From Dermanyssus gallinae (Eukaryota > Arthropoda > Arachnida > Mesostigmata > Dermanyssidae), in the NCBI GenBank assembly GCA_003439945.1, contig QVRM01001517.1:1-64000 (forward strand): 64,000 nucleotides of DNA, given 5' to 3'. The notes under the pieces are model-generated. The model worked only from the letters and a program-made list of their open reading frames with translations, was not told the DNA's origin and did no database searches. Shown in pieces: positions 987 to 50,406 of the stretch. The stretch's first letter is position 1, and each line of letters begins with the position of its first letter. A program made the translations under genes and the position numbers.

Positions 987-1037
<51 letters not shown>

Positions 1038-1260: not shown

Positions 1261-1261
1261 G

Positions 1262-2090: not shown

Positions 2091-2102
2091 TAGTATTATT
2101 TC

Positions 2103-2257
2103 TCATTATGATTAGTATAACGTAATTCTCTCCTATGATTGTAGTATAACGTTATTCTCTCCTATGATTAGTATGACGTGATTCTCTCCTATGATTAGTA
2201 GAACGTGATTCTCTCCTATGATTGTAGTATAACGTTATTCTCTCCTATGATTGTAGC
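2103..2257. repeat. Minisatellite, about five ~30-35-bp units
   Basis: The core TTCTCTCCTATGATT occurs five times, separated by AGTATAACGT-like or AGTATGACGTG-like spacers. Confidence 0.85.
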
Positions 2258-2585
2258 TGCTTGTGCGCGTGAGTGAATGATCAATGATATCATCAATCGC
2301 CCATAGCAGCGTGATGGATCAACAAATCATCATCAATTGCCCATATCGTCGTGGGTGGGTGGGTGGGTTAGTGGGTGGATGACTGAGTGAGAGTCCACCC
2401 TGATTTTTTGTGATCGGTCTGCGGGTGATCTGTGGTAGTGCAGCGTGCCTAAACGGGCATCTATCTATCTATCTCTCTCTCGGTGTTTGTGTGAATGCCA
2501 ACAGTCAAATAGCGACAGAAAAACCCAGACCAAAAGCACACAGTACAGCGCTGCAGGTCCTGCACGATGTATAATAGTAATAATA

Positions 2586-3400: not shown

Positions 3401-3791
3401 TTCGTTTCATGGTGGGATGATTAATCGCCAAATGGCAGCAGAAGCGATTAAACATTCGTCGTAACATTATGTACGTCAATCGTTCGTGTGATGAGAGTGT
3501 CGAACTACGAGAAACGCCCAAGACATCATCAATGAGAGAGTAATAGTGGCACAACAAAGTGAGGGGAAGATCAATCAATCAATCAATCAAGATCAATCGA
3601 GGAAGTACCCGGTGGTCGGGCAAAAACAACAACAACAACAACAACAACAAAAGTAATAACAGCGGTGTTGGTGACGCCGACGCGGACGACGATTGTGGTG
3701 ACAACAACGGTGAGCAACATCCGACAATAAACGAGCCAATCCAGAACAATCCAGATCCAGCAAACAAAACGGTCAGCGAGACAGATCGGAA

Positions 3792-4005
3792 ATGTTTGCC
3801 GGCCAGGGCCGGCTTTCCGGGGTTGTGTGCCCTCTGAATGCCGTCGGCCAGTGCAATCGGCCCTACTGTCATTTCAAGCATTCATCTTCATCGTCGGCAG
3901 GAGCTGACAATGGCCTCAGAAGCAGAACCAGCCCATCTGCTGCTGCGCGTAACTCTTCGTCGACAGAATTGCTCATTTCAACAGCGGCCGCCGGTGGCGT
4001 CTCCG
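3792..4005 (+). CDS. REXO1: REXO1 coding exon 1
   Basis: The exon begins [10 protein letters not shown] and carries the CX7CX4CX3H zinc motif (ending YCHFKH) found at the N terminus of REXO1 proteins. The donor is CTCCG|GTAAGC and the exon ends in phase 1. A GAC/GTT-repeat-rich segment lies upstream, so the transcription start cannot be placed. Confidence 0.8.
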
Positions 4006-33100: not shown

Positions 33101-36100
33101 TGTTGTGACGCCGAGAGCGGTTCGGATGGGTGCTGTGTGGCCAACGGTCACGTCTTCGAGAACCCACCGCTCAAAGAAGACGATCATTACGTAACAACGC
33201 TGCCAGCAGAGCCATCGGCAGCTGACATCTACAAGAGGGCAAGTTGTCATCCGCTAGCTGATTTGTTTTTCATTTTAGAAATGAAAATAAACTACTTTTT
33301 AGTAAAAAGTGGAAATTGCTACCCAACAGGTGTCACATCAATAACGGGAGATTTTAATTCCATATACGAATAATTCAACTTAATACAGACTTTTATTTAT
33401 AGACTAAACGGAATTATGCACGAAACAACATATCTGGCTAATGCCTCCTTTGCCCGGCACGCCTGCGTTCTTTTAACGGAATTTTCAATTAAGGTTGGAC
33501 ATAATTGTGACTGTTTTACAGAGTCCAATAACCCTTTTCGAGGCTTGGTTGGTCGCAGGTTTGTTGACATCATGTTTGGCTTCAAAAGCCAGGGAAAGAA
33601 GTCCGAAACCAAACTCTGGTTACTTAAACGGGATCTTAAACAAACAGATAATATTTCGTGCATAAGCTTCTTTCATCTCATTTGGATCAAGTGGTACCTC
33701 TTGTTGGAAACACATTTCTTTGAAATCCGTTTCATCTTATTAAAGGATAGAAAACGGGGCTATCATGCTCCATGTGCTTTAGGAATCATTGTTTTCTTCC
33801 GAATGAGTGTTCCCGAACACGCGGCCACATTTTGACGAACAGTCGTGACTTTATCTGTCGAATAATCTGGGCGAATATGTGTTGGTGGTTTGACATCAAT
33901 AATCGACTCAGTCTCCTCGATTTTTTTTATTATTCTCTTCACAGTTGATGCACTTGGCCTATGTTTCAACCAATCATTTGACGCAATTTTCAAGTTGTGC
34001 CAAATGTTTGCCATTTTTGTGTAACGATAGAATGACGATAGCGTTGTTGTACGATCTATTTTCAATAACAGCGAACACTCCACATCGAGCTGTCACTTGA
34101 CTGTTAAAGCACAATAGCACAAATTGCGCCAAATTAAAACAAAATTCCGCTCTCGTTAGTAAACCCTGTTTTGCGTTATGTGAGATATATACTTAAATTA
34201 TTTTTGCAACCGCATTGCTTCTACAATCATTTATGCATGACACGTTAAGTGTATAGCTATGATAACCGCAGTTTTTTAGAAACACCTAGCAAATCGGGTG
34301 CTCGTTACGCTCTATGTGTAATCGGTGTATGGTAAGAGTATTAGAGTACGAAAACGAAAGTACGTCTGTCGCCTTTTTTTCGAAGAGATGAAGGTACTCA
34401 AAGGCATGTCGAGTTGAGTAAGAAAGCTATACGGATTTAAAGAAATAACACTCTCGTTATATTTTCCTCTTTACTGGCAGGTTTACGCCATCGACTGTGA
34501 GATGATATACACCACTCGCGGAACAGAGCTTGCCCGCGTGTCCATGGTTGACATGAAGCTACAAACTGTCTACGAGACCAAAGTCAAACCACAAAATCCT
34601 GTGCTAGATTACAATACGCGGTTCAGTGGCCTCAAAATGGAAGACTTGGAAACGGTCACGACGGAACTGCATGAGGTTTGTGTGTATTTATATTCATTGG
34701 TACAGTGTCGCGTCTGCTACTGGCCAATGATGAATGATCACTGATAAATTGCCATTCTTCCAGTGGCCAATGAAGATTCCAATATCCTCGAAACTATCGA
34801 GGATATTGGAATATTTTTGTCTCAAATAATTTTAAATCAACGGATCAAACGAGAAGCACGATCAAAACTAAATAAATTGGGTGCGATCAAACTAACTATC
34901 CCGTGAGAAATTAAGCAACTTGCGACAAGTCGCTATAGATGCATGCGAACTGGCATTGTCACGCTGGACTAAACCGCAGTTACTATTGGCCTGTTTGGGC
35001 ACTTGGAGATCGGCTGAGAAACACTCTAGACACTGGCGGTACTATTCACTGTTAACAGTTGTCTTGCTCTGCAGAAGCTCGTCGTGCGTTAATCCCCCCC
35101 CCAGACCTCAAACGAACCAGGCCCCAGTGTCTCAAAGTACTCTCGAACATATGCAAATTATGTTGCTTCAAACGACCTAATTGTTCCATCAGAAAAAGGG
35201 TGCTTTTAGTCTTTTTTTACGATATAGTGGGGATTGCCGTAAGCCGTTCATTATGACTAAATATTTCCATGTCCTTCTACAGGTGCAGGCGGCCATACTG
35301 GCTCGCGTCTCCACGGACACTATCTTGATTGGACATAGCCTTGAGTCCGATCTGAAGGCTCTTAAAATTGTGCATTCGACTGTTGTTGATACATCACTTG
35401 TCTTCCCTCACAAATTGGGCTTACCTTACAAACGAGCGCTTAAGAATCTTCTTAAGGATCACTGCCAAAAGATCATACAAGATGGAGGTATGTACATAAT
35501 TAGTTTTAATATATAACTTTTTTTGCTAACACTTTGTAGTGAACAATTGTCTCTGCGTTAACGTGTAGTTACGGGTTCTGATGGAGAATTATCCTCATGG
35601 AAAGATGGAGGTATTGCATACGCGCTATAATGTATTATATTAATACATGTCTGATATATCTGTATTAATATAGTTGTTTCATATATAACAATATAATCTA
35701 CCATAGCGTTGTTCGGTTTGTTCCCATGACAACATAAGATGAAAAATAATTCAATTTAATGCAATGTAAATTGCAGTAAATTTCAATTTACTGCGGTAAC
35801 AAGTCTGTCAGTCAGTTACGGCCAGCTATGTTTCTAAGTATTAGCCTATTATAGCTTGCTTAGTGGGAAATCTTCTGGGGTATCGCTTACGGTAGTTGAA
35901 ACAGTTTGTCAACGTGTGCATTCGAGTAGTTTAGCACGATCGACCTAATCCACCCCAGGGACTCATGAAATGTTTAGTGAATTATATTGTGAAAATCATA
36001 AACCTTGGCTGTCTTCAATCGCATTTTCGAACATGTGTGAATGCGAGCCGTTGTGGGCACGAAAATGCGCCTATCGGTTCGCTATCGTTTTGCGCTGACA

Positions 36101-37425
36101 TAAGGCAGTCGTGTCCTACACACTTAAATCTCAATAGATTAAAAAAATCTTTCAATAGTATCATACGCTTCAGCTTTGTGGCTCGTGGTAAAGTGCAGTT
36201 GTCGTAACTAGAATTGCTTCATGTGCAATAGTGCATATCACTTTATAACTGCCGACTGTTTTCAGCTGGCAAAGTTAATATATAGAAGGTGTGGCTTCAT
36301 CGAGCAATGTGAAGAAGGACTGCATATCAATAACCTATATCAATAGCCTAGCCAGTGGTGGGTACGAGGCTACGTGGGGCTCTTGCCCGAATGGACTGAC
36401 TCGCGTTGAGCTCCTAAAGCGTAGGAAGTCACGGTAAACTCCTTATGAAAGTTCCGAGACAGACTTGAAAGTGGGAACTCACAGGCATACGGTTCGTACA
36501 ATGTGCGATCCCACTTGATGTATTGAGTGCTCCTGTTCAGCAGATATTTTCTAGAACGTCTTCGGTGCATAAAAGCATCTGAAAAATTATTTTATGTATG
36601 TGATTCCCAGGCTACTCAAGTTCGCTAGATTTTGACCCGGCGTTTTAGAGAATCCGGCAATACAATTAGTAGGCCGCCACCTAGGAAAGTTACATGTCCC
36701 GAGTATGGCTTTAACCTAGATGAAAACGATGAAATTCTGAAACGAACGAAGACTGAGGCCGTCGACACTTCTAATATCTAAGGATTGTGTTCTTAAGCTC
36801 GAAAAGCTTATTTTAACATTTATAAGAAATTACCTGCAAGTGCGATATTTATGAAATCTCAAATCAATTGCTAAGTTCAAGATCGCATTGATAGTCTCAT
36901 CTTGTACTAAGGTAATTTGGCTGAACTTAACCAGTTCAGATCTGGCAACATGTGACCAAGTAAACGTCAAGCGTTTTAGTGACCCTAGCGCAACTTAGCA
37001 AAAGACAGCTAGTCCTCTTTGTAGAGAGGATTTTGAAGGTACCCTGTACTCGAATCGAATCCACAAAAGATTTTATGAGTGAGGTCGGAGGTATGGCAGG
37101 CTTTGACTATGTCTATCTTTTGTCAGTGATGATATCTAGAGTACTCCCGCTAAGCAGGCTAGAACAGGTCAACTCATTTCAATAAATACAATTGACTAAA
37201 AAATTATTGATTAAAAAGGCGCCCTATATAAATTATACACTTGAATTGTAAAAATAGTCATTCCTAATTGTTAGGTGCGCGATCCTAGAAGCGTTTTTCT
37301 GTCATGGACACTCTAAAATGCTTATGACTTCTATTTCAGTGGATGGGCACGACAGCGCTGAGGATGCGAAGGCGTGCATGGAGCTGATGCTGTACAAGGT
37401 TAAGCAAGATCTCAGATCAGAATAA
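3792..37425 (+). CDS. REXO1: REXO1 orthologue, RNA exonuclease 1 (17 coding exons)
   Basis: This is a 3'-5' RNA exonuclease of the DEDDh superfamily; the vertebrate protein binds elongin A (established knowledge). Seventeen exons joined at GT/GC-AG sites give 1260 residues with consistent phase throughout, close to the vertebrate length. Residues 13-30 form a CX7CX4CX3H zinc-finger-like motif. Residues 291-560 are Ser/Lys/His/Arg-rich and probably disordered. Residues 833-951 hold the NVRQ...YLGILIEQ block typical of REXO1. A Cys/His zinc-binding region spans about 1000-1070. The exonuclease domain covers 1100-1260: D1104 and E1106 (AIDCEM), D1187 (HSLESD), H1236 and D1241 (GHDSAED). All catalytic residues are present, so I expect an active enzyme. 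The start codon is the first ATG before the zinc motif. A noncoding exon further upstream is possible but not seen. Confidence 0.93.
4205..4530. repeat. Imperfect GTT-rich tandem repeat in REXO1 intron 1
   Basis: A longer period is visible inside the GTT array: blocks like GTTGTCAATGTTTCTATTG recur at about 4313 and 4399. The open frames here are repeat artefacts. Confidence 0.7.
4660..6930. other. REXO1 intron 1, left part, nothing recognised
   Basis: Unique AT-rich intronic sequence with an (ATT)n tract at about 5643-5668. I see no exon, RNA gene or mobile element. Confidence 0.5.
6940..8640 (-). mobile_element. Non-LTR retrotransposon fragment, reverse transcriptase and C-terminal zinc motif
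   Basis: On the minus strand, 8627-8390 encodes the RT entry region ([29 protein letters not shown]). After a frame change the frame from 8112 to 7027 carries [20 protein letters not shown] and the catalytic [12 protein letters not shown]. The C-terminal part ends in a Cys/His motif ([19 protein letters not shown]). No endonuclease is visible, so the copy is 5'-truncated. At least one frameshift, near 8390-8110, makes it inactive. AATAAA on the minus strand at 6952-6957 marks the probable 3' end. It sits in REXO1 intron 1, antisense to the gene. A related C-terminal fragment lies at 46014-46430. The clade is not certain. Confidence 0.85.
8640..11388. other. REXO1 intron 1, right part, nothing recognised
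   Basis: AT-rich intronic sequence with a CT run near 10030-10052 and an (AAC)n tract at about 11229-11250. No coding exon fits REXO1 here before 11389. Confidence 0.45.
11389..11516 (+). CDS. REXO1: REXO1 coding exon 2
   Basis: This short exon has no long open frame of its own, so simple ORF scanning misses it. The acceptor is CACATTGCAG and the donor is CACAA|GTAAGA. Entering in phase 1 it encodes [20 protein letters not shown] followed by a Pro/Arg-rich stretch. It leaves in phase 0, exactly what exon 3 needs. It supplies the phase change that a direct exon 1 to exon 3 join lacks. Confidence 0.72.
12583..12940 (+). CDS. REXO1: REXO1 coding exon 3
   Basis: The acceptor is TCTCATTTGCAG and the donor is CACAAGG|GTATGT (phase 1). 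The exon encodes YKPTPLAVL, a REXO1-type motif, followed by Ala-rich sequence. It ends with an acidic stretch ([18 protein letters not shown]). Confidence 0.85.
13323..13492 (+). CDS. REXO1: REXO1 coding exon 4
   Basis: The acceptor is TCTGTTCTGCAG after a T-rich tract, and the donor is AAGAAG|GTGGGT. The exon is phase 1 in and phase 0 out. It encodes a hydrophilic Lys/Glu-rich segment beginning [12 protein letters not shown], with no recognisable domain. Confidence 0.78.
13799..14409 (+). CDS. REXO1: REXO1 coding exon 5 (Ser/Lys/His-rich)
   Basis: The acceptor follows a T9 tract (TCATGCAG). The 611-nt exon encodes about 203 residues of low-complexity Ser/Lys/Arg/His sequence ([17 protein letters not shown], then [13 protein letters not shown]), probably disordered and possibly nucleic-acid-binding. 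The donor AATAG|GTGCGT (phase 2) joins exon 6 in frame. A stronger-looking GTGAGA ten bases earlier would break the frame. Confidence 0.85.
15067..15263 (+). CDS. REXO1: REXO1 coding exon 6
   Basis: The acceptor is GGTATCAG after a poly-C tract, and the donor is ACGAAAC|GTGCGT. The exon is phase 2 in and phase 1 out. It continues the Ser/Lys-rich region ([18 protein letters not shown]). Confidence 0.78.
16085..16144 (+). CDS. REXO1: REXO1 coding exon 7
   Basis: This 60-nt exon has the acceptor TTCGAGATGCAG and the donor GATG|GTAAGC, with phase 1 at both ends. It encodes [20 protein letters not shown], an acidic segment. Confidence 0.78.
17480..20440 (+). mobile_element. Decayed non-LTR retrotransposon with PHD finger, endonuclease and RT remnants
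   Basis: Broken plus-strand frames show a PHD-like zinc finger at about 17530-17655 ([13 protein letters not shown] then [11 protein letters not shown]). An endonuclease scrap lies near 19000-19080 ([17 protein letters not shown]), followed by the RT entry ([15 protein letters not shown]) near 19385. RT core remnants run from 19760 to 20015 ([31 protein letters not shown]). The catalytic box, [10 protein letters not shown], lies at about 20220-20250. Many stops and frameshifts are present and the second catalytic Asp is Asn. A ~170-bp repeat interrupts the RT at about 20022-20195. It lies in REXO1 intron 7. Confidence 0.7.
20022..20195. repeat. Dispersed ~170-bp repeat, copy 1
   Basis: It is homologous to 21042-21211; shared blocks include CATTAGCCAGCC, CCCGAAATTGTTTTTGGAAT and GAACGTTCAAACGT. 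It interrupts the relict RT between the [11 protein letters not shown] region and the YADN box, so it is an insertion and not part of that element. Confidence 0.8.
20869..21017 (+). CDS. REXO1: REXO1 coding exon 8
   Basis: The acceptor is TTCATGTCCAG and the donor is TTCGAC|GTAAGT. The exon encodes [20 protein letters not shown], a block conserved in REXO1. It lies between two copies of a ~170-bp dispersed repeat; the second copy starts about 28 bp after the donor. Confidence 0.88.
21042..21211. repeat. Dispersed ~170-bp repeat, copy 2
   Basis: Second copy in the same orientation, about 1.02 kb from the first and just after the REXO1 exon 8 donor. No terminal inverted repeats or tRNA boxes are obvious, so its class is unknown. 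Confidence 0.8.
21236..21370. repeat. Tandem duplication, ~63-bp unit, two copies
   Basis: Both units contain AAAGCAATCAGGGAGCACTT followed by GAATTGAATTGAATATAA; they differ at a few positions near the start. Confidence 0.85.
21550..21787 (+). CDS. REXO1: REXO1 coding exon 9
   Basis: The acceptor is CTACGTATGCAG and the donor is CGGATCA|GTGGGT (phase 1 out). The exon encodes TRKRIAHDP and then a Pro/Gln/Arg-rich stretch. The basic RIAH block is typical of REXO1. Confidence 0.85.
22369..22619 (+). CDS. REXO1: REXO1 coding exon 10
   Basis: The acceptor is GATAATTCTAG and the donor is CAAAAG|GTACGC (phase 0 out). It encodes [15 protein letters not shown], a Ser/Ala-rich repeat and a Pro-rich block. 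The 7.9-kb intron that follows holds an antisense gene and SINEs. Confidence 0.82.
22854..22859 (-). terminator. Possible polyadenylation signal of the nested gene
   Basis: AATAAA on the minus strand about 370 bp past the last stop of the nested gene, just beyond a SINE. Confidence 0.3.
22904..23012 (-). mobile_element. tRNA-derived SINE, family A, copy 1 (internally deleted)
   Basis: The right end is the tRNA-like head on the minus strand and the left end is the tail. It is flanked by 15-bp target-site duplications, GTATAACAAAAGCTA (22889-22903) and GTATAACAAGAGCTA (23013-23027), with one mismatch. About 65 bp are missing compared with the copies at 45.7 and 47.5 kb, including the B box. 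Confidence 0.85.
23232..25336 (-). CDS. Nested antisense gene, coding exon 2 (two frame changes)
   Basis: The acceptor TCTCTCTATGAATATCTACATTCAG has a good pyrimidine tract. The first frame gives [20 protein letters not shown] and further coiled coil. The second (to 23911) gives [20 protein letters not shown], the acidic block and the Gln-rich part. The third (to 23232) gives the Ser/Thr/Pro-rich tail. No GT-AG pair of sensible length accounts for either shift. Confidence 0.55.
23232..26398 (-). CDS. Unknown coiled-coil protein gene nested antisense in REXO1 intron 10
   Basis: I do not recognise the family. Exon 1 (26398-26156) and exon 2 (from 25336) join in phase 0 at ACG|GTACAG and CTACATTCAG|GAA. 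Together they encode one continuous coiled-coil region rich in Leu, Glu, Gln and Arg. Exon 2 changes frame twice, each time by +1 in the minus direction: between about 25180 and 25090, and near 23940. After the coiled coil comes an acidic run ([21 protein letters not shown]), a poly-Gln stretch and a long Ser/Thr/Gln/Pro-rich tail ending at 23232. The frame changes may be assembly errors, missed introns, or mutations in a pseudogene. Composition stays protein-like across them. An AATAAA at 22854-22859 could end the transcript. Confidence 0.6.
25592..25630. repeat. (TA)n microsatellite
   Basis: About 19 TA units in REXO1 intron 10. Shorter (TA)n arrays lie at about 13558-13581, 15941-15970, 20790-20818, 26473-26505, 27842-27862, 30127-30150, 30359-30380, 41458-41480 and 43751-43778. 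Confidence 0.9.
26156..26398 (-). CDS. Nested antisense gene, coding exon 1
   Basis: It starts [20 protein letters not shown] and continues with heptad-like helix sequence ([20 protein letters not shown]). The donor TTGACG|GTACAG falls after 81 full codons. Confidence 0.62.
26510..28480. other. REXO1 intron 10, middle part, nothing recognised
   Basis: Intronic sequence between the nested gene and the 28.5-kb open frame. It has an inverted ACT/GTA microsatellite (27257-27302) and a CT run (27514-27543). Confidence 0.4.
28490..28969 (-). other. Open frame of 159 codons, unsupported
   Basis: A basic 159-residue frame inside REXO1 intron 10 with no family resemblance, signal peptide or clear splice sites. 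A mobile-element remnant or chance are both possible. Confidence 0.2.
29660..29942 (-). mobile_element. tRNA-derived SINE, family B, copy in REXO1 intron 10
   Basis: Read on the minus strand it matches the SINE at 47366-47859 along its length. Shared blocks include ATGCTGCCACAAG, AAACCCTAGATAT, AGTCTAGAATTAAAAACAAC and the GGCGGC...GG head. Target-site duplications are not clear. Confidence 0.75.
30220..30357 (-). mobile_element. tRNA-derived SINE, family C
   Basis: On the minus strand the head reads as a tRNA-like unit: an A-box-like TGGCTTAGTGGC, an anticodon-like arm and a B box GGGTTCGAGACCC (30292-30304 on plus). The body continues to about 30220. The right end abuts a (TA)n array. A decayed tRNA gene is the alternative. 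Confidence 0.6.
30494..30615 (+). CDS. REXO1: REXO1 coding exon 11
   Basis: It encodes [12 protein letters not shown] and ends RIPINVRQ(N), the conserved block before the YL motif. The donor is CAAAA|GTGAGT (phase 2). The acceptor AACTGTGAAG has a poor pyrimidine tract, so the left edge is the least certain boundary in the gene. Phase and total length support it. Confidence 0.75.
31108..31463 (+). CDS. REXO1: REXO1 coding exon 12
   Basis: The acceptor is TTCCTGCCAAAG and the donor is ATCACAG|GTATCG (phase 1). It encodes [19 protein letters not shown] and onward, the conserved REXO1 helical region before the zinc module. An Asn run encoded by an AAC microsatellite (31303-31330) sits in a loop and is probably expansion-prone. 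Confidence 0.92.
32002..32271 (+). CDS. REXO1: REXO1 coding exon 13 (zinc module, first half)
   Basis: The acceptor is GATCTGACAG and the donor is GAAAAG|GTACTG. It encodes [20 protein letters not shown], then [10 protein letters not shown] and CVYHWGK. These Cys/His residues form the first half of the zinc-binding module before the nuclease domain. Confidence 0.93.
33066..33238 (+). CDS. REXO1: REXO1 coding exon 14 (GC donor)
   Basis: The acceptor is TTTTCACCTCAG. The exon encodes the second half of the zinc module ([20 protein letters not shown]) and ends DIYKR. No GT donor fits; AAGAGG|GCAAGT gives phase 0 and a classic GC-AG intron sequence. Confidence 0.9.
33763..34083 (-). pseudogene. 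Transposase helix-turn-helix fragment in REXO1 intron 14
   Basis: A 106-residue frame contains [20 protein letters not shown] and DVKPPTH, like the N-terminal helix-turn-helix domain (DUF4817-type) of mariner-like transposases. No DDE catalytic domain follows in frame. Sequence on to 33400 may be the rest of the dead element. Confidence 0.5.
34481..34675 (+). CDS. REXO1: REXO1 coding exon 15 (Exo I motif)
   Basis: The acceptor is TTTACTGGCAG and the donor is CATGAG|GTTTGT. It encodes [14 protein letters not shown], with the catalytic Asp and Glu of motif Exo I, and DYNTRFSG, a REXO-family hallmark. Confidence 0.95.
34776..34812. repeat. Perfect 16-bp inverted repeat in REXO1 intron 15
   Basis: ATTCCAATATCCTCGA and its exact reverse complement are separated by 5 nt (AACTA). 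Confidence 0.97.
35283..35487 (+). CDS. REXO1: REXO1 coding exon 16 (Exo II motif)
   Basis: The acceptor is TCCTTCTACAG and the donor is GATGGAG|GTATGT (phase 1). It encodes [15 protein letters not shown], with the Exo II aspartate, and [20 protein letters not shown]. Confidence 0.95.
35488..37339. other. REXO1 intron 16, nothing recognised
   Basis: AT-rich intron of 1.85 kb. I see no exon, repeat family or RNA gene. Confidence 0.5.
37340..37425 (+). CDS. REXO1: REXO1 coding exon 17 (Exo III motif and stop)
   Basis: The acceptor is ACTTCTATTTCAG. It encodes [20 protein letters not shown], with the HX4D motif of Exo III, and ends QDLRSE followed by TAA. Confidence 0.95.
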
Positions 37426-37476
37426 GGAGACATAAATGTGTATGACGCCAGCCGACAAAATGCTAATAATAATAAT

Positions 37477-37482
37477 AATAAA
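37477..37482 (+). terminator. Probable REXO1 polyadenylation signal
   Basis: AATAAA lies 52 bp after the REXO1 stop codon, at the end of an AAT repeat. It is the first canonical hexamer downstream. Confidence 0.55.
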
Positions 37483-40400
37483 TTCACCGCCCTATGTTAT
37501 TAGGCCATAATAGTTGGCGGACCGGTGGGCGCACTTTCGTACCAAACGCGACACGTACATATACTTACATACACACGGTTACACACATCTTCGATGGGAC
37601 CATATGAAGGCAGCCAATAACGAGCATGCGGACGTTGATATGACAACAGTTAGTGCGAACACTGTCCTGTATGCGAAGGAGTCTTAACCTAACTTGCTGA
37701 AGGTACCTATCTTCGACTTCGCCATTTTGTAGGCGATTGTGCATTGTGACCACGAACTGGACAGTGACGATACTGTCTCGTTTATTAAACGAGATCTGGG
37801 AGACGCTCAGACTCGGCGACACAGATAAGTAGCCTTTTATTGTCACCGAATGGCAATTTGTGGGAGGCATGGTCTCATCATTCACTAGTTCCGCGTCCTG
37901 ACACATTTCGGTCCTTTCATCTGTAAGTGCAGCAAGTTTTGACTATTAACGGATAGGCATGATGGCTTTTGTGCAGAGCGCACGGGTGCACATATAGGAA
38001 AGACTCACGTCTTGCAAATGGCGCATTGTAAAGATTGTCGAGCTTTGTGTTTTTATGTATAACGGCTCGACTCGGTTCATATGTATTATTGCTTTGTTGT
38101 TGTTGTTGTTGTTGACGAAACCAAGTTCTGCTGCCTAAATAGCAGATTGCAAAACGCCTTGCCGACTTCTGGCCATCGTGTCTTATACGTCACAGGTAGT
38201 CGAGGCTAGCGATTAGCTGGTGGAAATAATAAACGGTTGGGCGATTGCGCCTAACTTATTGTCTTTTTTAATGACTTAACTGTTCTATCAACTCAGCCAT
38301 GTTGGTCACAAGCACAGTATACCTCTACTGGCCTTAAGCGCCTTCACATCGTTTGAGCCGCCTTACCATGCGCAGTATGTGAAATTGCGTACAGTGTCAG
38401 GATTAGCAGGAATCGCGCAGAAGTATATTTGCGTTAAAAAGCGTGAAATGTTTGGCCGACCATGTATCTGCAGTCTCTTCTGTTCTTCGGCAATGCCCTA
38501 TTATATGCATATATAGAACAACAACAATAATATTATGTCAACTATGGGGTGAGGTCTGACTACCTAACTTGTCAATGCCCTAAACCAAATGCCTTCAAGC
38601 GAACAAGTTTTCTTCTATGTATTCGGCAATCTTAGAGGTTCACTGGCCATTTATTGGCGCCTGAGGTCTGATCTCAATTTAGATTGAACTCGACGGGCAA
38701 ATTCGTTTGCCGTTTGCCTGCGTAGGAATGCTCGTTTCAACATAAGTTTGACAACCTACTGGCAGCCGGTAGTAGGACATTTGGCGGTGCACTGACTGTG
38801 GGTAGTTTGGCTCGGACATATATTTAATTTAGCGCCTAAGTGGCTCGTGTACAATAACAATGTCACTATACGTCCGCCCAATCTGTAAAACCAAGCTTTC
38901 GAATGCAGCATGTTGGCTGTCCGCCTCTGATTTCTCGGCGTAGGTATACTCGTGTTCGGTTCGCCGAGCATTTCGTTCAGCTAAACAGGGCTTGATACAT
39001 CCCATACTCGCAACATACCGGACAAAACGCCCGCTTTTGGATGAACAAATGACAACAAAATGAACAAAATGACCTTTTCAGTCATAACACACATTTCAAT
39101 ACCAGATTCAAAGTGTTTCGGTAATAGACTTAAAATAACTTTTTTTTCACCTGAAGCAATGCAACCCTGCAGGATTCTGCTGCTTAAAAACACAGTAGGC
39201 GATTAACGTTCTGGCTGACAATTTTCTTAGGAGACGTCGCGCTTGTTTGCTAACACTATTATGGAGTGTTCATCGTCATCTGTGCTGTATGTAGCTAGTG
39301 AGACTCTAAGTTATATAAGAGGCTATAGAAGCCATATAAGAGGCTATAGAAGCCATTCCGACAACGGCAATGATACGAATTACAATGGTACCACTTACGC
39401 TCAACTTTAGTTGAGCGTAACCATCTTAGAGCGCCCTTTCTAAAGGTTCGAAGTGACAAACATCACGTCGCTTTATAATAATTATTTGCTTGTTCGGCTT
39501 CTTTTGCATGGTGTTCCGCTTGTTACCACAGTGACAAGTAGCGTATACTCTGTCTTCATTAGAAGCTGCAGCAAAACGCATCTATTAACTACACAAGCCC
39601 ACACACGTTACTAAGCTCTCACACGCACACTAAAATGGGACGTATACGAAACGCTTATGTGCTGACATGGTGCCTCTGACCTTCCGCAAAGGACGCCTAT
39701 GGAAGGCACAGTGGCTCTAGACGCCCTTCAAGTCGAATCGAATCATTGTGTTCTTGAGGTCCCTTCATCTCCATTGGGGATATTTGGCGATCATGTCTAT
39801 AACGGTTACGGACTTACTTACGTAAGAGAGGAAACTCGAACACTGGCTACAGTTTTGCTGAACCAACAAGTCGGCTACAGATTCTTCGAGTAGGGCACAG
39901 ACCAGAATCAGTGCTGTGGAACGGCTCATCCCAGACCCGCCCAATGACCTCCTGTCTGCACTTAGTAGGGGCGTCCTGAGGAGTAAAAAAATAGCAGAAA
40001 GCCGGTACTTGCCGATGCAAAAACATGTCGGGCTTGTTGATTAATTAGGGCAATTATATCAATATGAGACGTTGTGGATGAGACAATCGATCAGTCGGAG
40101 TGAATGCGATGTAAATATGTGAGGTCGACGAAGAACTCGGCTAGTGGTAGCCGCTGGAGGACAAACAAAGCGAATTGTGCCTATATGTATGCTACGGTAA
40201 TAATGAATATAAGTCGCACACGGTGTTCCATATGCCTTTCAGCATATTTGGTGAATGGAAGCGCAGCTTTGCGACCGCAATAAACTATATAGCTGAATAA
40301 ACGTTTCCGTTACCTTTACGATTTAGTAAACGTGCTTTGTCTATTTTTTAATCCCGACTGATATTGAAATAGGTATGACATCATCGAACTTGTGGAACGA

Positions 40401-40720
40401 ACTCAAATCGTTGATAATAAAACATCACAATGTGTGCAGCATCCATCCTCACTTTTCGTATTTGGGTGCCACTTCCATATATTTGACAAGGTGCAGTACA
40501 ATCCTGAATAAAAATAAGACAACCTATAATGTATGTCTGCTGCAAAAACTTCGTCGTAACTGGGTCTAAATAAACGCACACGTGTTTGGTATCTATTTGT
40601 TACATCAGGTATTTATTATGATTTGAAAACCATGTATCTGTAGCATATACGTAGCACATTCCTGCACATATAGCAGTCTTCATGCGTCATATATTATTGC
40701 GTCATATAGCATATAACGCA
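37483..40720. other. Intergenic sequence, nothing recognised
   Basis: No coding signal. A ~19-bp tandem doublet (about 39319-39357, unit AGAGGCTATAGAAGCCAT) and a 12-bp inverted repeat (TTACGCTCAACT / AGTTGAGCGTAA, about 39395-39420) are the only structures. Confidence 0.5.
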
Positions 40721-40723
40721 ATA

Positions 40724-41218
40724 TACGAGGTCGCATGGAAACGTTCAAGTCTTCATTTATAAAAAAAATGGATTTATTTAATCTTCCAAGAAGTTTTTTA
40801 ATCCATTCTCCAACCAGCTGCAATAAATGTGTACCACCATCTTCACACTAAGAAACATTTTTTAAACGCGTCTGTTGGAATCGAGTTAAAATGCTCCTGC
40901 GATGTTTTGTTATCTCTTTTATAGCCTCGAAACGTTGTTCTTTCAATTAGTTTTTATCCGTGGGAATAGAAAGGAGGCGCACGGAGCCAGGTCCGGCGAG
41001 TAACTTCGCTGCCAGTCTTTTGACGGATTAAGACTCTCCCAGCTGGTCCATAAGATATCCCCGATTCCTCAGGCTATCTCAGTGAAGGTAGTTAGACGAT
41101 TGTTGAGAATGATATAACCATTTTTCAAGGCGTTTTTTATTTATTGACATTGGAGGCCTTTCCAAACGGAGGTAGTCTTCGGTCTGTTCACGTCCGTGGC
41201 AAAATCGACGATACCCTG
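40724..41218 (-). pseudogene. Mariner transposase relic (C-terminal part)
   Basis: On the minus strand, broken frames give YSPDLAPC, FLFPRIKT, QNIAGAF and WLENGLKNFLED, the C-terminal end of a mariner transposase with the third catalytic Asp region. Several stops are present. The left edge (ATACGAGGTCGCATGGAAAC) resembles a mariner terminal repeat. The right side is cut by the LTR element that begins at 41219. Confidence 0.65.
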
Positions 41219-41819
41219 TGTTGCCAACGGAACCGTAGAATGAAGACAGTCGAAAATGCGTGGGTTCACTGACGCTTATCTTATTTATTATATTTCACGA
41301 TACGCAAGAGAGCGATACGGCAAGCGCCGCGTCTCTTCGTATTATTGCCTAGCTAACTTACACTCTACTCAATGTCCCGGCGGTTAGCGCGAAGCTGTTT
41401 CGCCGCCGGAACTCACACAGACCACACACTAACAATGCTGCTGTGCTACTCAACTAAATATATATATATATATATATATAAATCTACCTGCGCCTGCTAG
41501 CCACGATCACTCACCACCCTAGGACAGTATCACTGCCACGTTCACGCCGTTGTCGCTGCCACGCCGTCGGACGTCCCGGTCGCCGCCGGACTAAGGGTTT
41601 GCAGAGCACGCGTTACGCCGAACGCTCGGGATTGCAAGGGGTTGATAAAATGGCGCGCATCCCTTTTTATACGCCCGGCGACCGGCAACGTGACAGTGCG
41701 CGAACAGTGCAGTGGCGGGTTGTGGCTAACAGTGCAGTGGAGGGTTGTGGCCAACATTGCAGTGGCGGGTTGTGGCTAACATGCAGAGACTTTTACCTGC
41801 GGCCTTCCAATATGCAACA
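41219..41819 (-). repeat. LTR, left copy (3' LTR of a minus-strand element)
   Basis: It matches the right LTR from GAGAGCGATACGGC (41308) to CCTTCCAATATGCAACA. It has an extra ~71 bp (41237-41307) after the first 18 bp. The TATA box TATAAAAAGGG is on the minus strand near 41668. Upstream of it in the transcribed sense, at 41697-41785 on the plus strand, lie three units of GTGCAGTGGCGGGTTGTGG type, possible enhancer repeats. Confidence 0.88.
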
Positions 41820-42276
41820 CTCCTCCCCCTTTTTGAGGGCTGCGGTAGCCCCTCAAAAATACCTATGTTACATTAGCTGTGTTTAACATTTATTATGTGG
41901 CACCATGCGAATTCAACTTTGGCTTACAACAATTCGCCAACAGGCGTCCAGCTCTTTTGACGTAGCGGCCCCCACCGAGGTGCACCCGGCAGGCACGCTT
42001 CACTCCGTACTTGGTCGCCGGCGACTTCTCCATACGACTTGCCAAAATGCCCGCAGCACTTTTTCTTCCAACAGTACTACGACGGCGCATGCGGCGAACG
42101 GCTCGACACTGGGGTCTCTCCGCCGCCGCAGAGCCATCGTCAGGACCAGCAGATGCTCGGCGTGCCATCGCCTTCAAAATGCGCTGCTCCGATCGCGGCG
42201 CATGTGACTATCGCGACCCAAATATTCATTTCACCTCCCCGCAACACGTTCATGACCATTTCTGTCTTGAAATGCT

Positions 42277-42738
42277 TCAGCCCGGGATTAACTTCTGCCA
42301 GGCCCTCGTCTTCGGGCGGCTCGATACGAGAGGTGCTCGCGATGTCCTCCCCAAGCACGGCTGCCGGGCCCCACACAGCGGGTGCTGCTTCGCCCACGCG
42401 AGCTCTTCCGTTGTGAGTTGACAACTTGCATCCTGCCGATGGAACCACCTCCCAGCCCGGGCGACGCTGGCGACCATTCGGGTCAGTTTGTGCAAGCTTG
42501 AACACCCCGCTGGGTCTATTCGTGGGGGTTCGCACGTTGCGACAAACACCCAAATCTCTGGTAGCTCGTTGTAGCCCTGCCCCGGCTGAAAGGTGGGGTA
42601 CTGCGTCGACGGCTTCTTCAGTAACTCCACGTCCTTGGCTACGAGATGCACTGCTGACCTTGCTGCCACCGCTTCCTTCCTTTTCGTGGATGAAGACTCG
42701 GATGGCGTCGCTGAATGGATGGAAGAACTCTCGACCAC
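42277..42738 (-). pseudogene. pol remnant of the BEL/Pao-like element
   Basis: The frame includes RIDPAGCSSLHKLTRMVASV and QLTTEELAWAKQHPL, like the linker between RNase H and integrase in BEL/Pao polyproteins. No catalytic motif remains. Confidence 0.55.
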
Positions 42739-42850
42739 CGTTGAACTTCTTAGCTTGGCAACGGGGAGCGCCGCCCCGCCCGTTGCGTTGCTTTCTTGAA
42801 ACCCGACTGACCGATTTATACTCGGGCCTAGCGCTAAACTTGATTCTTGT

Positions 42851-43279
42851 CTACCGGGGCCAACGCGCTCCGACAGCCTCTTTGGATAACGGTGCTCTTG
42901 CCTCTGCCCATCGTGCAGACACGTCCAGGCCGCGCGACGGCATGGCGGCGGCTAGAGTGCTACGTCGCTTGTAGCCCATTAAACTACCCCGGATACGGGA
43001 CAACGTCTCCGTGTAGTCGTTGGATCTATCTACTTCTCGACCTACCTCTTCATCACTGAACTCGCCGGCTACGACGAAGAAACGCTCGTCTAACTGATCT
43101 AACCTGCATTTGTAATCCTCCGCTGTTAACAGCCAGCCAGTAACACGTGTCTCAATCTGCGGCGTAAACTGCGAAGGCTCTTGGCCATCAGGGCAAAACG
43201 ACTTGATGGTGGAGTCCAGCTTGGACACCAGCGCACGCACTGCGCGCCGAAGCGCTATCACATTTTTGACTGTCTTCAT
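42851..43279 (-). CDS. gag fragment of the BEL/Pao-like element
   Basis: The frame starts MKTVKNVIALRRAVRALVSK and has a helical, acidic middle (LDQLDERFFVVAGEF). About 142 codons end without nucleocapsid zinc knuckles. The length is far below a complete gag, and the following pol scrap is in another frame. Confidence 0.6.
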   Translation of the reverse strand: MKTVKNVIALRRAVRALVSKLDSTIKSFCPDGQEPSQFTPQIETRVTGWLLTAEDYKCRLDQLDERFFVVAGEFSDEEVGREVDRSNDYTETLSRIRGSLMGYKRRSTLAAAMPSRGLDVSARWAEARAPLSKEAVGARWPR

Positions 43280-43389
43280 TCTACGGTTCCCGTTGGCAAC
43301 ATATTGACGCCCCACGTGGGGCACGACGTGTAGCAAGAGGCCCGGACGTAGAAGTGACCATAGCGGCAGCCAGGATGGCTGAGACCACG

Positions 43390-43489
43390 GTACCGGTCGC
43401 CGGCCGTATAAAAAGGAATGCGCGCCATTTTCATCAACCCCTTTGCTTATCCCGAGCGTTCGGCGTAACGCGTGCTCTGCAAACCCTTA
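43390..43489 (+). repeat. Inverted LTR fragment (promoter and R region) fused to the tRNA
   Basis: This ~100-bp segment is the reverse complement of LTR sequence at 41578-41690. It includes the TATA box (CCGTATAAAAAGGAATGCGC), here on the plus strand. It ends CCCTTAG and runs straight into the tRNA 5' end. Confidence 0.85.
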
Positions 43490-43562
43490 GCCCGGCTAGC
43501 TCAGTCGGTAGAGCATGAGACTCTTAATCTCAGGGTCGTGGGTTCGTGCCCCACGTTGGGCG
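43490..43562 (+). tRNA. tRNA-Lys (CTT) sequence captured at the LTR primer-binding site
   Basis: All four stems pair perfectly or by G-T. The anticodon loop is CTCTTAA (anticodon CTT), and A and B boxes are present. Position 58 is T where A is near-invariant (TTCGTGC for TTCGAGC). The 3' flank is ACA plus three bases and then the LTR end, so its reverse complement is exactly where a primer-binding site should be. The 5' flank is an LTR fragment. I read it as a reverse-transcribed primer tRNA and not a chromosomal tRNA gene, although it may still be transcribable. Confidence 0.85.
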
Positions 43563-43568
43563 ACAATA

Positions 43569-44147
43569 TGTTGCCAACGGAACCGTGAGAGCGATACGGC
43601 AGCGCCGCCTCTCTACGTCTAATTGCCTAGCTAACTTACACTCTACTCAATGTCCCGGCGGTTAGCGCTAAGCTGTTTCGCCGCCAGAACTCACACACAC
43701 AGTACTCACTCAACAATACCGCTGCGCTACTTCTAACAATCACTCAACTAAATATATATATATGTATATATATATATTTCTACCTGCGCCTGCTAACCAC
43801 GATCACTCACCACCCTAGGGCAGTATCGCTGCCACGCTCACGTGGCTGCCGTTGCCACGCCGTCGGACGTCCCGGTCGCCGCCGGACTAAGGGTTTGCAG
43901 AAGCGTTACGCCGAAACGCTCGGGATAGCAAAGGGGTTGATGAAAATGGCGCGCATCCCTTTTTATACGGCCGGCGACCGGCACCGTGACAGTGGCGCGA
44001 ACGTGCAGTGGAGGGTTGTGGCCAACAGTGCAGTGGCGGGTTGTGGCTAACAGTGCCGTGGCGGGTTGTGGCTAACATGCAGAGATCATCCTCATCATCA
44101 TGGCGCGCAAATGCAAACTTCTACCTGCGGCCTTCCAATATGCAACA
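43569..44147 (-). repeat. LTR, right copy (5' LTR of a minus-strand element)
   Basis: A 579-bp LTR with TGTTG/CAACA ends, an internal (TA)n tract and the same U3 repeats. Its U5 end, at 43569, is separated by three bases (ATA) from the ACA that stands for the tRNA CCA end. Confidence 0.88.
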
Positions 44148-44394
44148 CCCTGTATGCACCGTGTTTCGGGACACTGTTTGATCACCATAGGCAGTGTCTA
44201 ACATTTCCACCACTTTAGAACATATGACTTGGTTTTAATACATAACTTAATGCTTATAATAGGCTTCAATGCTTCTCCGTTAAACGTTGGCTGAGAGTCC
44301 TCCCGAAAAAAAAAAAAAAGAAAACTTATTGTTGATGTCGATTAGATGTCGCAAGTGATCAACTGCATACGGCCGATATTCTTAGCGGCGCAAC

Positions 44395-44600: not shown

Positions 44601-45666
44601 GTGGCAGTAGATTGTATGGATTCGCCTTGTTGTTGACCTTATCTCCATGGTTGTTGTCGTCGTCGTCGTCATCATTATTATCTTTGTTGCCGTTATTGTT
44701 ATCTTTGTTGCCGTTATTGTTGCTGCTGTTGCCATGACCCTTGTTGTTATTGCTAACGTTTCTGTAATCCTCGCCGTCGCTGTTGCTGTTGTTGCTGTCG
44801 TTGTTGTTGTTACGGTTGTTTCCGCTGTTTCTGTCATCCTGGTCGTGGTTGCCGCTCTCCTTTGAGCATCCATCTGACAGAAGCAACAGGTCCATATCAG
44901 GCAACGCCATTTTGCCGTCGATGCCACCAACGATCACAGAGCTTACTAATCGAGCCTCGATTGTTTTCCGGACCCGGTAGTGCACACTCTCGCTCGCCCT
45001 GAAATCACACAGCAGAAACACGATTGGTAAGTAAGGCGACTAGAAACTTGCCATGAGCCGCTTCCGACCGGCTACGGTAATACAAATGAGGCCAATTTCT
45101 CTCCACCTAGACCAATTCATGTCGAAGACCAATCTGTTTTTGATGCTGCAGCTGCTGCTTTTTCTATAACAGCTACTGCTAGACGTACGACCTGGCGGTG
45201 CAACGGACTTTGTAAGGCCGCTAGCTTTAAAGGAGTCCACACGTAATACTCTCGCGTACACTCTGCCGACTATCTGAACCGAACTTCCCAACGAGATTCG
45301 GTACTCACCTCAGTCAAACTTGAGGTGAAAAAAATGTGTAACGAGTACAAAATCTAGTCAAAACTAATTATTTGTCAATAGGGCGAAGAAAGCTTATCAT
45401 GCGTGTGAACAGGATAATTTTAAGCAACTTTATTTGTTAGTTTTGCATGGAGTGAGACATGTTTGAAGTATGAAATCGTTTTACGAGAAATGTTGGTCCC
45501 GTGAATAAACCTCAAATTTGATATTATTCTCTAGGATAGCTGTTATTGTTGTTACGGTTGTTTCCGCTGTTTCTGTCATCCTGGTCGTGGTTGCCGCTCT
45601 TCTGCGAGCATCCATCTGACAGAAGCAACAGGTCCATATCAGGCAACGCCATTCTGCCGTTGATGC

Positions 45667-45841
45667 TTTACGGGGCTGACTCTCAGCCAAGATTTAACGT
45701 CCATGGGACTGCTTTTCGCATTGCTTCATAGACAAACCGCCATAAATACAAATGTGCAACGATGGGGCTCGAACTCGCGCACCTATGTGTTTCCTCCGGT
45801 CGCGAGGCGCAGACGCATGTCACCACGCCAACGGGCTCGAA
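45667..45841 (-). mobile_element. tRNA-derived SINE, family A, copy 2
   Basis: The tRNA-like head is at the right end on the minus strand, with B box GTTCGAGCCCCA. Target-site duplications CTGCCGTTGATGC (45654-45666) and CTGCCGTCAATGC (45842-45854) differ at two positions. The uninterrupted site is visible at 44917-44930 in the first copy of the tandem unit. Confidence 0.87.
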
Positions 45842-46013
45842 CTGCCGTCAATGCCGCCAACGATCAGATAGCTTGCTAATCGAGCCTCGATTGTTTTGCG
45901 GAAACGGTAGTTCACACTCTCGCTCGTCCTGAAATCACACAGCAGAAACACTATTGGTAAGTAAGGCGACTAGAAACTTGCCATGAGCCGCTTCCGACCG
46001 GTTACTGTAATAC

Positions 46014-46570
46014 AAATTAAATTCGAGCACCTAAATAACCTGAAGGCAGCTCACCTCAAGCGAGTCCTTGGCCTCCATCGCTTAGCCCGCAACCGACTTG
46101 TCTATCTCCTCACCGACACCCCTTTATTCGTCGAGGAGCTAAGGCAACGCTTTGACCTGCCGGCATCTCCCAATTACGTCAATGTCCTCAAAACGTGGGA
46201 GTGCAAGTTTTCTGAAATCGATGTGAATTTCTTCAGCACCGGAGCAATGCGAAACCAGGCATGGAAAGGGCCGAATCGGTCTAACCGCCATATGGTGACC
46301 AGGTTTGCCGTGCACGGTTTTCACCATATGCTGTGCGCGACCCCCGGTTTCCATGATCCTCCGACTCATGCGTGTGCCTTCGTTGCAAACTACCATGCGG
46401 TAGATACCATGCTACCTCCTGTAGTCTAGTCCCATCGCTAGCTAATCTAGATAACCAGGCCCACGTTATAACTTCATAGTTCTACCTATCTATTAGTTTA
46501 TATGTCTAAATGGGTGTATGTAAACATATGCATATATTTTAACTGTACTATTTCTAAACAACACGTGTGA
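46014..46570 (+). mobile_element. Non-LTR retrotransposon 3' fragment (RT C-terminal region)
   Basis: The frame encodes LNNLKAAHLKRVLGLHRLAR, RNRLVYLLTD and FAVHGFHHMLCATPGFH. It aligns with the C-terminal part of the minus-strand element at 6.9-8.6 kb ([26 protein letters not shown]). Sequence on both sides belongs to the tandem unit, so this is an inserted, 5'-truncated copy. Confidence 0.72.
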
Positions 46571-47365
46571 TAAAAAACAGTCCGTTTTTGATGCTGCTTT
46601 TTCTATAAAGCTACTGCTAGACGTACGATCTGGCGGTGCAACGGACTTTGTAAGGCCGGTAGCTTTGAAGGAGTCCACACGTAATACTCCCGCGTCCACT
46701 CTGCCGACTATCTGGACCGACGAGAACTTCCCAACGAGATTCGGTACTCACCTCAGTCAAACTTGAGGTGAAAAAAATGTTGTAACGAGTTCAAAATCTA
46801 GTCAAAACTAGTAACCCGTCAATAGGGCGAACAAAGTTTATCATGCGTGTGAACAGGATAATTTTTAGCGACTTTAATTGTAGTTTTGTATGGAGTGAGA
46901 CATGTTGAAGTATGGAATAGTTTTACGAGAAATGTTGGTCTCGTGAATAAACCTCAAATTTGATATTCTTCTCTAGGATAGGTCTAATCAATGCATAGAT
47001 ACGATTCCAATAAACAGTCATAATTTCTGATAAGTGCACAGCGCTACCCGAACCGCAAAAAATCGCCAAATATGGGCTTTGTTTAAATCACACACCAGGC
47101 CCAGGAGTGCGGCTCAGAAGGCAAGTACAAAACTGCAGTTCCTTTAAGGGACACGGTTTCTAGAGACTTTAGTGAAGCAGAAATAAAGAGACGTTCACAG
47201 TTTAACTAAGACCATTAACGAAAGAGCTACGGAGGGGGGCGACCACTCAGACAATTAAGTAACGCAGTGTAAGTGTAACCCAAGCCTCAAAAACCTTACG
47301 ACTGACCTATTAACCTCTAAATCTAATCTGTTGACCACACAATCATGACCAGGTCACAACAACGT

Positions 47366-47859
47366 TGTGGCGGCGTGGTCTAGGAGACTTGTGCGCTAGT
47401 CATGGTTGCCATCTACCGGGGTGTCGCCGGTTCGATCCCTGTTGTTGATCGAATTTTCTTTGAGCGATGCTCATTGAGAATAGATGATAAACCATACCGC
47501 TGAGAGTCAGTAAAGTTTTCGGGCTGACCCTCAGCCAAGATTTAACGTCCACGGTACTGTTTTTCTCATTGCTTCATAGACGGACCCCCATAAATACAAA
47601 TGTGCAACGGTGGGGCTCGAACCCGCGCACCTATGTGTCTCCTCCGGCTGCGAGGCCGCAGACTTAAGCCACCACGCCACTGGGCTTGACACCGCTGAGA
47701 GTCAGCGGCCATGCTGCCACAAGGACTGTTGGGAAAACCCTAGATATCTTAACATGTCCGGCCCTCGGTGCATTGAAAATATACCTCAGGTTAAGTTCCG
47801 TAGGGGACGGAGGATAGTCTAGAATTAAAAACAACCTCCTTAAAAAATGTTTCAATTCT
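47366..47859 (+). mobile_element. tRNA-derived SINE, family B, split by a family A SINE
   Basis: The plus-strand head has a B box GGTTCGATCCCTG at about 47427. Perfect 15-bp duplications AGGTCACAACAACGT flank it (47351-47365 and 47860-47874). Without the inner insertion it is about 299 bp. Confidence 0.88.
47511..47690 (-). mobile_element. tRNA-derived SINE, family A, copy 3 (nested)
   Basis: A 180-bp copy with perfect 15-bp duplications ACCGCTGAGAGTCAG (47496-47510 and 47691-47705) inside the family B SINE. The minus-strand head carries the B box GGTTCGAGCCCCA. Confidence 0.92.
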
Positions 47860-49119: not shown

Positions 49120-50406
49120 GTAGTTCAATAAGTTCTTAGAATGAGCTTTTTAGAATTCGAATTTTGGCACGCTTTCACCGCTAATAGGAACTGCAACTTT
49201 TTGACTGCTAGTACTCAATATATTATGGTGATTGGCCGTTGCGATTTCGTTTGATAGCTTTTCCCGTGCAACGTATCGGCGCGATTTTTAGAAATGGAGA
49301 AAAAAGAGTTTCGAGTGGTTATCAAGCATTTTTATTTCAAAGGTTGGAATGCGACCCAAGTAAAAATTGAGTTAGACAAGACGTACAGTGACTCTGCGCC
49401 ATGTTTTGCCACTGTTTCCAACTGGATTAATGTGTTAAAAAGAGGTCGCAGGAGCACCGAGGATGAACTACGTCCAGGAAGCCAAAAAACGGCAACTGAT
49501 GAGGAAAACGTAGAGAAAGTGCGAAAAATTCTTGGCACAGATAAGCAAATGAACATTAAGAAAATAGCGGAGGCATTAGGGATTAGTTTAGACAGTGTGC
49601 ATTTTATCCTACACGAAAACTTGAAGATGAAAGAGCTTAGAGCAAAATGGCTGCCGCATTTGCTCAACCAAAGCCAAAAAGACGCGCCTGTTTTGGCTTT
49701 ACAGCGAAATTTGGCCAAGATGTCGAACAATCTGTCGGATTTTTGGTGCAGATTCATGACCGTCGATGAAAGCCGGGTTCATCACTACACTCCCGAGACC
49801 CAAGAAGCATCTTGCCAATGGTGTGCACCTGATGAAGGACCTTCGAAGAGGGTGCGGACAACGGCATTGACCGGAAAGGTGATGGCTACAGTTTTTTAAG
49901 ACCAACGTAGAATAATGCTGGTCGACTACCTTGAGAGCTGTAAAACGATCACAGGAGAATATTATGCAAGACTGTTGGACTGCCGTTAGCAAGAACTCAT
50001 CGTGAAACGGCCCGCTTTGCAGAAGAAGGTTGTCCCGTTTCACCAGGGCAATGCTCCTGCACACAAGTCCCGGCAAGCATCGGCAAAACTGGCCCAACTG
50101 AGGTTCGAACTTATTGAACAATCCTCCTATTCTCCAGACCTGGCCCCCTCTGATTATTTCCTCTTCGGACATTTTAAGAATAGTCTCGGTGGAAAGCGTT
50201 TTTCCAGCAATGAAGAGGTTAAGGCTGCTGTCAATGCCTATTTTCAGTCTAACGACGCGGAATTCTACTCAAGAGGTATGAAAGCTCTGAAATCTCGGTG
50301 GGAAAAGTGTATTGAGCTTCTCGGGGAGTATATCAAATAAGAAAAATTTAAAAACATGATTTGGAAAATTCTCGGTTTTCATTCTAAGAACTTATTGAAC
50401 TACCTG
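49117..50406 (+). mobile_element. Mariner transposon, full length, inactivated
   Basis: The 1290-bp element has matching 28-bp terminal inverted repeats beginning CAGGTAGTTCAATAAGTTCT. It sits between TA dinucleotides inside a (TA)n array, as expected for TA-targeting mariner elements. The single transposase frame lies between the repeats. Confidence 0.95.
49294..50340 (+). pseudogene. Mariner transposase pseudogene
   Basis: A reading frame of 349 codons starts MEKKEFRVVIKHFYFKGWNA and ends LLGEYIK. It is broken by two in-frame stops: TAA at 49897-49899, where mariners usually have Trp, and TAG near 49987. The N-terminal helix-turn-helix region is well preserved (CFATVSNWINVLKRGRRS). The first catalytic Asp is present (FMTVDESRVHHYTPE). 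The second is replaced by Gly (PFHQGNAPAHKS), and the third is present (SPDLAPSDYFLF). No frameshift is needed, so it decayed mainly by point mutation. Confidence 0.95.

Follow-up and report, generated by a model that had tools for sequence, protein, structure and literature searches.

A complete tRNA-Lys(CTT) at the primer-binding site of an LTR retrotransposon of Dermanyssus gallinae

The closest described relatives of the locus considered here are over-extended plus-strand strong-stop DNAs of lentiviruses and spumaviruses. According to a review, m1A58 of the primer tRNA is the main stop for reverse transcriptase, with Psi55 and m5U54 as minor stops; in vitro, reverse transcription of unmodified tRNA runs to completion, and some retroviruses retain a primer over-extension sequence (PMC13191261). 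The same review reports that tRNA-Lys3 with A58U hampers HIV-1 and that, when the methyltransferase is lacking, plus-strand synthesis passes A58 (PMC13191261). Misincorporation during read-through of m1A depends on the context (PMC4787781), and misincorporation at modified bases was considered, and rejected, as the cause of changes in the primer-binding sites (PBS) of mouse ERVs (PMC7472051). Here, we describe an LTR element into which a primer tRNA has been copied completely, as found in a genome; a join at the tRNA 5′ end and two shared insertions point to self-priming of plus-strand strong-stop DNA. The window, that is, the whole stretch of DNA analysed, is 64 kb long.

The element and its tRNA

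The tRNA unit lies in an LTR retrotransposon that has two LTRs with TG..CA ends, a short target duplication, a polypurine tract (PPT) at the 3′ LTR and a PBS at the 5′ LTR (Table 1). The positions of the PPT and of the TATA box place the element on the minus strand. The LTR beside the tRNA, described in the original prediction as the right one, was confirmed as an LTR, but with this orientation it is the 5′ LTR. The two LTRs are 89.7% identical (54 substitutions over 525 aligned sites; K2P 0.111), and this copy of the retrotransposon is therefore old. A segment of 71 nt of U5 (41237-41307) is present in the 3′ LTR and absent from the 5′ LTR; piece E retains part of it. In the element sense, the order is 5′ LTR, spacer, complement of the whole tRNA, inverted piece C (43489 to 43384), inverted piece D, inverted piece E (down to 43261) and gag. 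The inverted LTR piece, the second PBS with its T58 and the inverted leader go beyond what had been predicted. The coding region consists of gag-like frames only, with no Pfam family above cut-off and no match in PDB or protein databases; when the gag-like frame was compared with known proteins, 491 candidates were obtained, none of them at E 0.001 or better.

Table 1. Features of the element and of its rearranged 5′ region (positions in the window).
Feature	Position	Strand	Remark
Target-site duplication, left copy	41214..41218	.	CCCTG
3′ LTR	41219..41819	-
PPT	41820..41839	-	adjoins 3′ LTR
gag-like internal region	41840..43260	-	restarts near eighth codon of L012 gag start
Inverted U5 end and TAT spacer	43261..43304	+	piece E, together with second PBS
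Second, inverted PBS	43305..43326	+	18 nt + ACGA, T58
Piece D, leader with gag start	43327..43383	+	inverted relative to gag; normal order seen in L012
Piece C, inverted U3-R copy of the element's own LTR	43384..43489	+	abuts tRNA 5′ end
Complete tRNA-Lys(CTT)	43490..43562	+	73 nt, T58; ARAGORN, Rfam, comparison with reference tRNA
ACA and spacer	43563..43568	+	ACA (position of CCA) 43563-43565, then ATA 43566-43568 (TAT in element sense)
5′ LTR	43569..44147	-	lacks 71 nt of U5 found in 3′ LTR
7-nt site in 5′ LTR	43881..43887	-	pairs with final 7 nt of tRNA complement; presumed fold-back site
Target-site duplication, right copy	44148..44152	.	CCCTG

The sole tRNA called by ARAGORN in the 64-kb window is this tRNA-Lys(ctt) (43490-43562, plus strand), to which Rfam RF00005 matches over model positions 1-71 of 71 (61.3 bits, E 7.9e-11). 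Compared with an insect-type tRNA-Lys(CTT), one of the 73 bases differs, A58 being replaced by T, and over 76 nt the change of C74 to A is the additional difference. The LTR end, TGTTGCC, begins at 43569, directly after ACA and ATA. Read on the minus strand, the tRNA complement comprises the PBS followed by the rest of the tRNA, where the PBS of the element belongs, and terminates at the mature tRNA 5′ end. Both ends of the unit are mature tRNA ends and no duplication flanks it. With ARAGORN, Rfam and the letters themselves in agreement, the predicted complete 73-nt tRNA with T58, placed 3 nt plus ACA from the LTR, is upheld, as is the change of A58 to T as its one clear departure from the expected lysine tRNA. 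Regarding the features of a tRNA gene, no T run that could serve as a pol III terminator occurs within 63 nt downstream. T58 also disrupts the usual A of the B box, which is then not intact. The unit is situated outside both LTRs, unlike the tRNA-like sequences within the LTRs of Helenus-type TRIMs. A SINE was considered as its source and rejected, because PBS and LTR adjoin the tRNA directly.

Window positions 43400-43650 served as the query against the genome (7160 contigs, 959 Mb); 40 of 837 candidates were scored, which makes the counts lower bounds. Among these 40, contig C5627 is the only one besides the window to match over the tRNA. Its positions 1-9300 align with window positions 34901-44281 at 96.5%, and since the alignment extends through the flanks, C5627 carries an allele or a duplicate of the same insertion. 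Its tRNA is identical to that of the window at 73/73 bases, T58 included, and 17 nt immediately upstream of the tRNA are missing. Selection on the tRNA was rejected as a reading of this identity: the tRNA sits inside an identical run of 418 nt, in contigs that differ at 68/3177 sites.

Other loci with pieces of the LTR were fetched (L012-L019 and L029-L056, some being neighbours or alleles of one another). Where the 3′ end of the LTR was recognised, it leads into a PBS in only two of them, L012 (C3976) and L035 (C6506). Both show TAT, a perfect 18-nt site, ACGA and then a mismatch; the PBS of ordinary members is therefore 18+4 nt long in 2/2 cases, reaching tRNA position 55, with T58. Because the site is this short in both fetched members with an LTR-PBS border, the whole primer tRNA is an exception at a true PBS. 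The comparison of PBS lengths among family copies, envisaged with the original prediction, thus sets an ordinary site of 18+4 nt against a whole tRNA here. Ordinary-site members were to count against the prediction if the tRNA unit proved to be an independent insertion; such members exist, but the unit is not an independent insertion. L012 has the normal order of U5, PBS, leader and gag start (ATGGCTGAGAC). The remaining recognised LTR 3′ ends enter unrelated DNA, like solo or 3′ LTRs, with one exception on C131 (see below). Among viral contigs, five of six patterns gave no match and one matched (L001) within other sequence, with no tRNA gene; in the pattern scan of genome contigs beyond the own genome, the single match came from a contig of Yoonia (L002).

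Elsewhere in the window, 44800-47660 is a mosaic of duplicated stretches with spacings of about 740, 930, 1440 and 1850 nt, and non-LTR-type reverse-transcriptase (RVT_1) regions occupy 7027-8732 and 59602-61125 on the minus strand. A Mos1-type helix-turn-helix remnant, under the Pfam cut-offs, lies at 49258-49899. The EloA-BP1 exon at 31037-31558 is RNA exonuclease 1-like, its only named hit being a protein of the mite Tropilaelaps mercedesae (48% identity over 75%), in keeping with a host among mites or tick relatives.

Position 58 and other tRNA-Lys copies

T58 is present in the whole tRNA, in the second PBS of piece E and in the extended PBS of both L012 and L035. Since L012, L035 and the second PBS carry the same base, T58 is a family trait that is not specific to the capture of the whole tRNA. 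A non-A base at position 58 is thus not restricted to the over-extended copy and, because ordinary PBSs also have T58, it is no proof that this enzyme molecule crossed m1A58. The original prediction saw in the locus a fossil of read-through to the tRNA 5′ end, with A58 to T as the signature of that particular event. Of this, the complete copying of the primer at the PBS, where ordinary members have 18+4 nt, is supported; the signature is not supported. Read-through of m1A58 in the window copy is plausible. T58 could derive from an ancestral misincorporation opposite m1A58, or from a primer with U58. A family site that ends at position 55, with A opposite 58, fits an inherited misincorporation, and a U58 primer fits just as simply.

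A plain tRNA-Lys(CTT) gene, with A58 or T58, was not found by the search with the 73-nt tRNA (28 candidates, all scored), which skips very common words, nor by two tRNA-Lys(CTT) patterns, which gave three hits each at identical places. A chromosomal T58 gene in matching flanks, which would have spoken against the original prediction, is thus not in evidence, but neither is an ordinary A58 gene, and these negatives carry little weight. The sole full-length match at 100% outside the window is that of C5627. Copies of the whole tRNA-Lys(CTT) with 92-95% identity, an encoded CCA, T58 and long flanks in common are found on C2537, C1770 and C4238 (L063, L064 and L065, near 1501-1576); they may be either another repeat with a whole tRNA or the outcome of a regional duplication. 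C3770 and C288 (L068 and L069, near 1501-1576) have tRNA-Lys-like copies at 84% with an encoded CCA and C58, and seven further full-length matches are at 79-81%. On C5417 and C1444 (L066 and L067, 1501-1554), the match is exact over tRNA positions 1-54 and diverges at the 54/55 border. An encoded CCA points to a mature tRNA as the source. On a speculative reading (see below), these repeats, with their CCA and a T or C at position 58, would be whole primer-tRNA copies that have multiplied.

Copying of the complete primer tRNA at the PBS is well supported. As to its course, we consider it probable that plus-strand strong-stop DNA was over-extended through the whole tRNA-Lys, primed on itself after folding back, underwent further switches and was integrated, T58 not being made by this event alone. 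The same copying event could also have used a tRNA-Lys(CTT) isodecoder with U58, unable to carry m1A58 and hence free of this stop, T58 then being faithfully copied everywhere. We judge such a primer unlikely: no chromosomal T58 tRNA-Lys(CTT) gene devoid of LTR or CCA was found in limited searches, and the sole CCA-less tRNA-Lys locus, on C574, has A58, though with a divergent 3′ end, whereas in favour of U58 every PBS-type copy read (whole tRNA, second PBS, L012, L035) and also C2537, C1770 and C4238 have T58. The reported effects of A58U tRNA-Lys3 in HIV-1 and of a lacking methyltransferase likewise favour it (PMC13191261).

Junction at the tRNA 5′ end and the inverted pieces

The final 7 bases of the tRNA complement pair 7/7 (6 Watson-Crick, 1 G-T) with 43881-43887, a site that is unique in the 5′ LTR (1/573 positions) and at which the inverted copy begins. 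By composition, the chance of a 7-nt pairing at a given breakpoint is 0.0014. Because 53.6% of 500 shuffled LTRs contain a site of such kind somewhere, only the coincidence of place counts. Moreover, piece C and the 5′ LTR have two insertions in common, a C following TTTT and an additional T ahead of GC, neither of which is in the 3′ LTR; C5627 reproduces this pattern. The first insertion is seen in 0/36 aligned family segments, some of which are alleles of one insertion. By exact motif, the 27 readable family segments (some alleles) have the first in 0/27, the second in 2/27 and both in 0/27. A three-way comparison looked star-like (private columns 7, 5, 5) and was refined by this family comparison, which groups piece C with the 5′ LTR. 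A nested independent insertion as the source of the inverted block was also rejected: it has no LTR termini and no duplication, and C shares the insertions with the 5′ LTR.

The sense strand of the 5′ LTR derives from plus-strand strong-stop DNA, and errors made in this DNA are therefore expected in the 5′ LTR and in products primed on it but not in the 3′ LTR, as is observed. The insertions and the join are what fold-back self-priming on this DNA would predict; the same common insertions would result if a 5′ LTR that had already mutated were later copied at the DNA level. Under the preferred reading, reverse transcription of the LTR retrotransposon would have erred at the plus-strand strong-stop stage. 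The U3-R-U5-PBS strand would have been over-extended across the entire primer tRNA-Lys, up to the mature 5′ base, a step whose product is seen in the sequence. The new 3′ end, complementary to the first seven bases of the tRNA, would then have folded onto the 7-nt site in its own LTR and primed the copying of R and U3, as suggested by the join and the two common insertions. Further template switches, more loosely argued, may have produced the inverted leader-PBS-U5 piece and the return to gag, and the aberrant product would finally have been integrated with a 5-bp duplication. T58 does not stem from this event alone, since the ordinary PBS of the family also has it beyond the 18-nt site, and perhaps goes back to an earlier misincorporation opposite m1A58.

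Fold-back priming is supported. A second fold-back, without tRNA, may be seen on C131 (L013, 1040-2316), where two family LTRs stand tail to tail with their U3 ends outward and GGCAACA-TATATA-TGTTGCC at the centre, between the near-identical 5-nt flanks AGATA and AGGTA; the arms differ at 64/603 sites, and this integrated inverted pair of LTRs looks like a fold-back at the LTR/primer border. Counted against the fold-back account are the joins of C to D and of E to gag, which show little homology and no clear order, and the 71 nt of U5 missing from the 5′ LTR but kept by the 3′ LTR and, in part, by E. It should also be noted, against the main account, that apart from T58 the tRNA has 0 changes, although the divergence of the LTRs would predict about 4 (P 0.017; with a true divergence of 0.06, P would be 0.112), and that the ordinary members number only two.

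If reverse transcriptase copied the tRNA but host end joining united the pieces from separate cDNA fragments, little homology would be at home at two of the three joins, as would the different origins of the two inverted pieces. However, the 7-nt match, placed precisely where the tRNA is joined, points to templated copying from the same strand, as do the insertions confined to C and the 5′ LTR, which would be absent from a fragment that came independently from another copy, so that we hold this assembly to be quite improbable. That a tRNA gene or pseudogene recombined with the PBS, or was inserted there, after integration is very improbable: the genome does have other tRNA-Lys-like stretches (the 28 candidates), two of them identical over 54 nt, but the unit has mature tRNA ends without a surrounding duplication, the sequence upstream is the element's own LTR and not a gene flank, and the only full-length match at 100% belongs to the second contig of the same insertion.

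Relation to known systems

As a type of product, an aberrant strong-stop product is already known. A literature search gave no description of a genomic PBS at which an entire primer tRNA is fixed, which weighs little as subscription papers were mostly beyond reach. The locus suggests that a tRNA modification can leave its record in extended primer-binding sites and that captured primers could be a source of tRNA-Lys repeats. Only tentatively, and with more doubt than belief, this can be generalized: in this lineage, reverse transcriptases might often pass m1A58, inserting A/G opposite; the extended PBS (18 nt plus ACGA, to position 55, a known stop) would be an inherited imprint of tRNA modification; and over-extension would sometimes fix and multiply whole primer tRNAs, a route to tRNA-Lys repeats as once proposed for SINEs.

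Fold-back priming of strong-stop DNA on itself is reportedly known from the TAR-dependent self-priming of HIV-1 minus-strand strong-stop DNA. There, the minus strand is concerned, in vitro, whereas here it is a plus strand that ends in a tRNA copy and is genomic. Ohshima and others are said to have proposed in 1993 that tRNA-Lys SINEs arose from a primer tRNA and retroviral strong-stop DNA. As in that proposal, the plus strand of the window has a whole primer tRNA-Lys joined to antisense U5-R; in contrast, the window copy shows no sign of being, or of having become, a SINE.

The non-autonomous LTR elements Helenus and Ajax (TRIMs) and Cassandra likewise contain tRNA or 5S rRNA sequence; theirs lies within the LTR, is proposed to stem from SINE insertion and is not complementary to the PBS, whereas here it is an extension of the PBS (PMC10886601). 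tRNA/LINE-1 chimeras are also tRNA sequences fixed by retrotransposition, but they are mostly tRNA halves in LINE-1 insertions, in contrast with the present tRNA, which is complete and lies at a PBS, between ends of LTR type (PMC13174262). The over-extended plus-strand strong-stop DNA of lentiviruses and spumaviruses shares the copying of a primer tRNA-Lys beyond position 58, a match that continues past the 18-nt PBS and further stops at Psi55/m5U54 (PMC13191261). The present locus differs from it in that the base opposite position 58 is A and not the complement of A58, and in that the whole tRNA was fixed in the genome and fold-back would then have followed.
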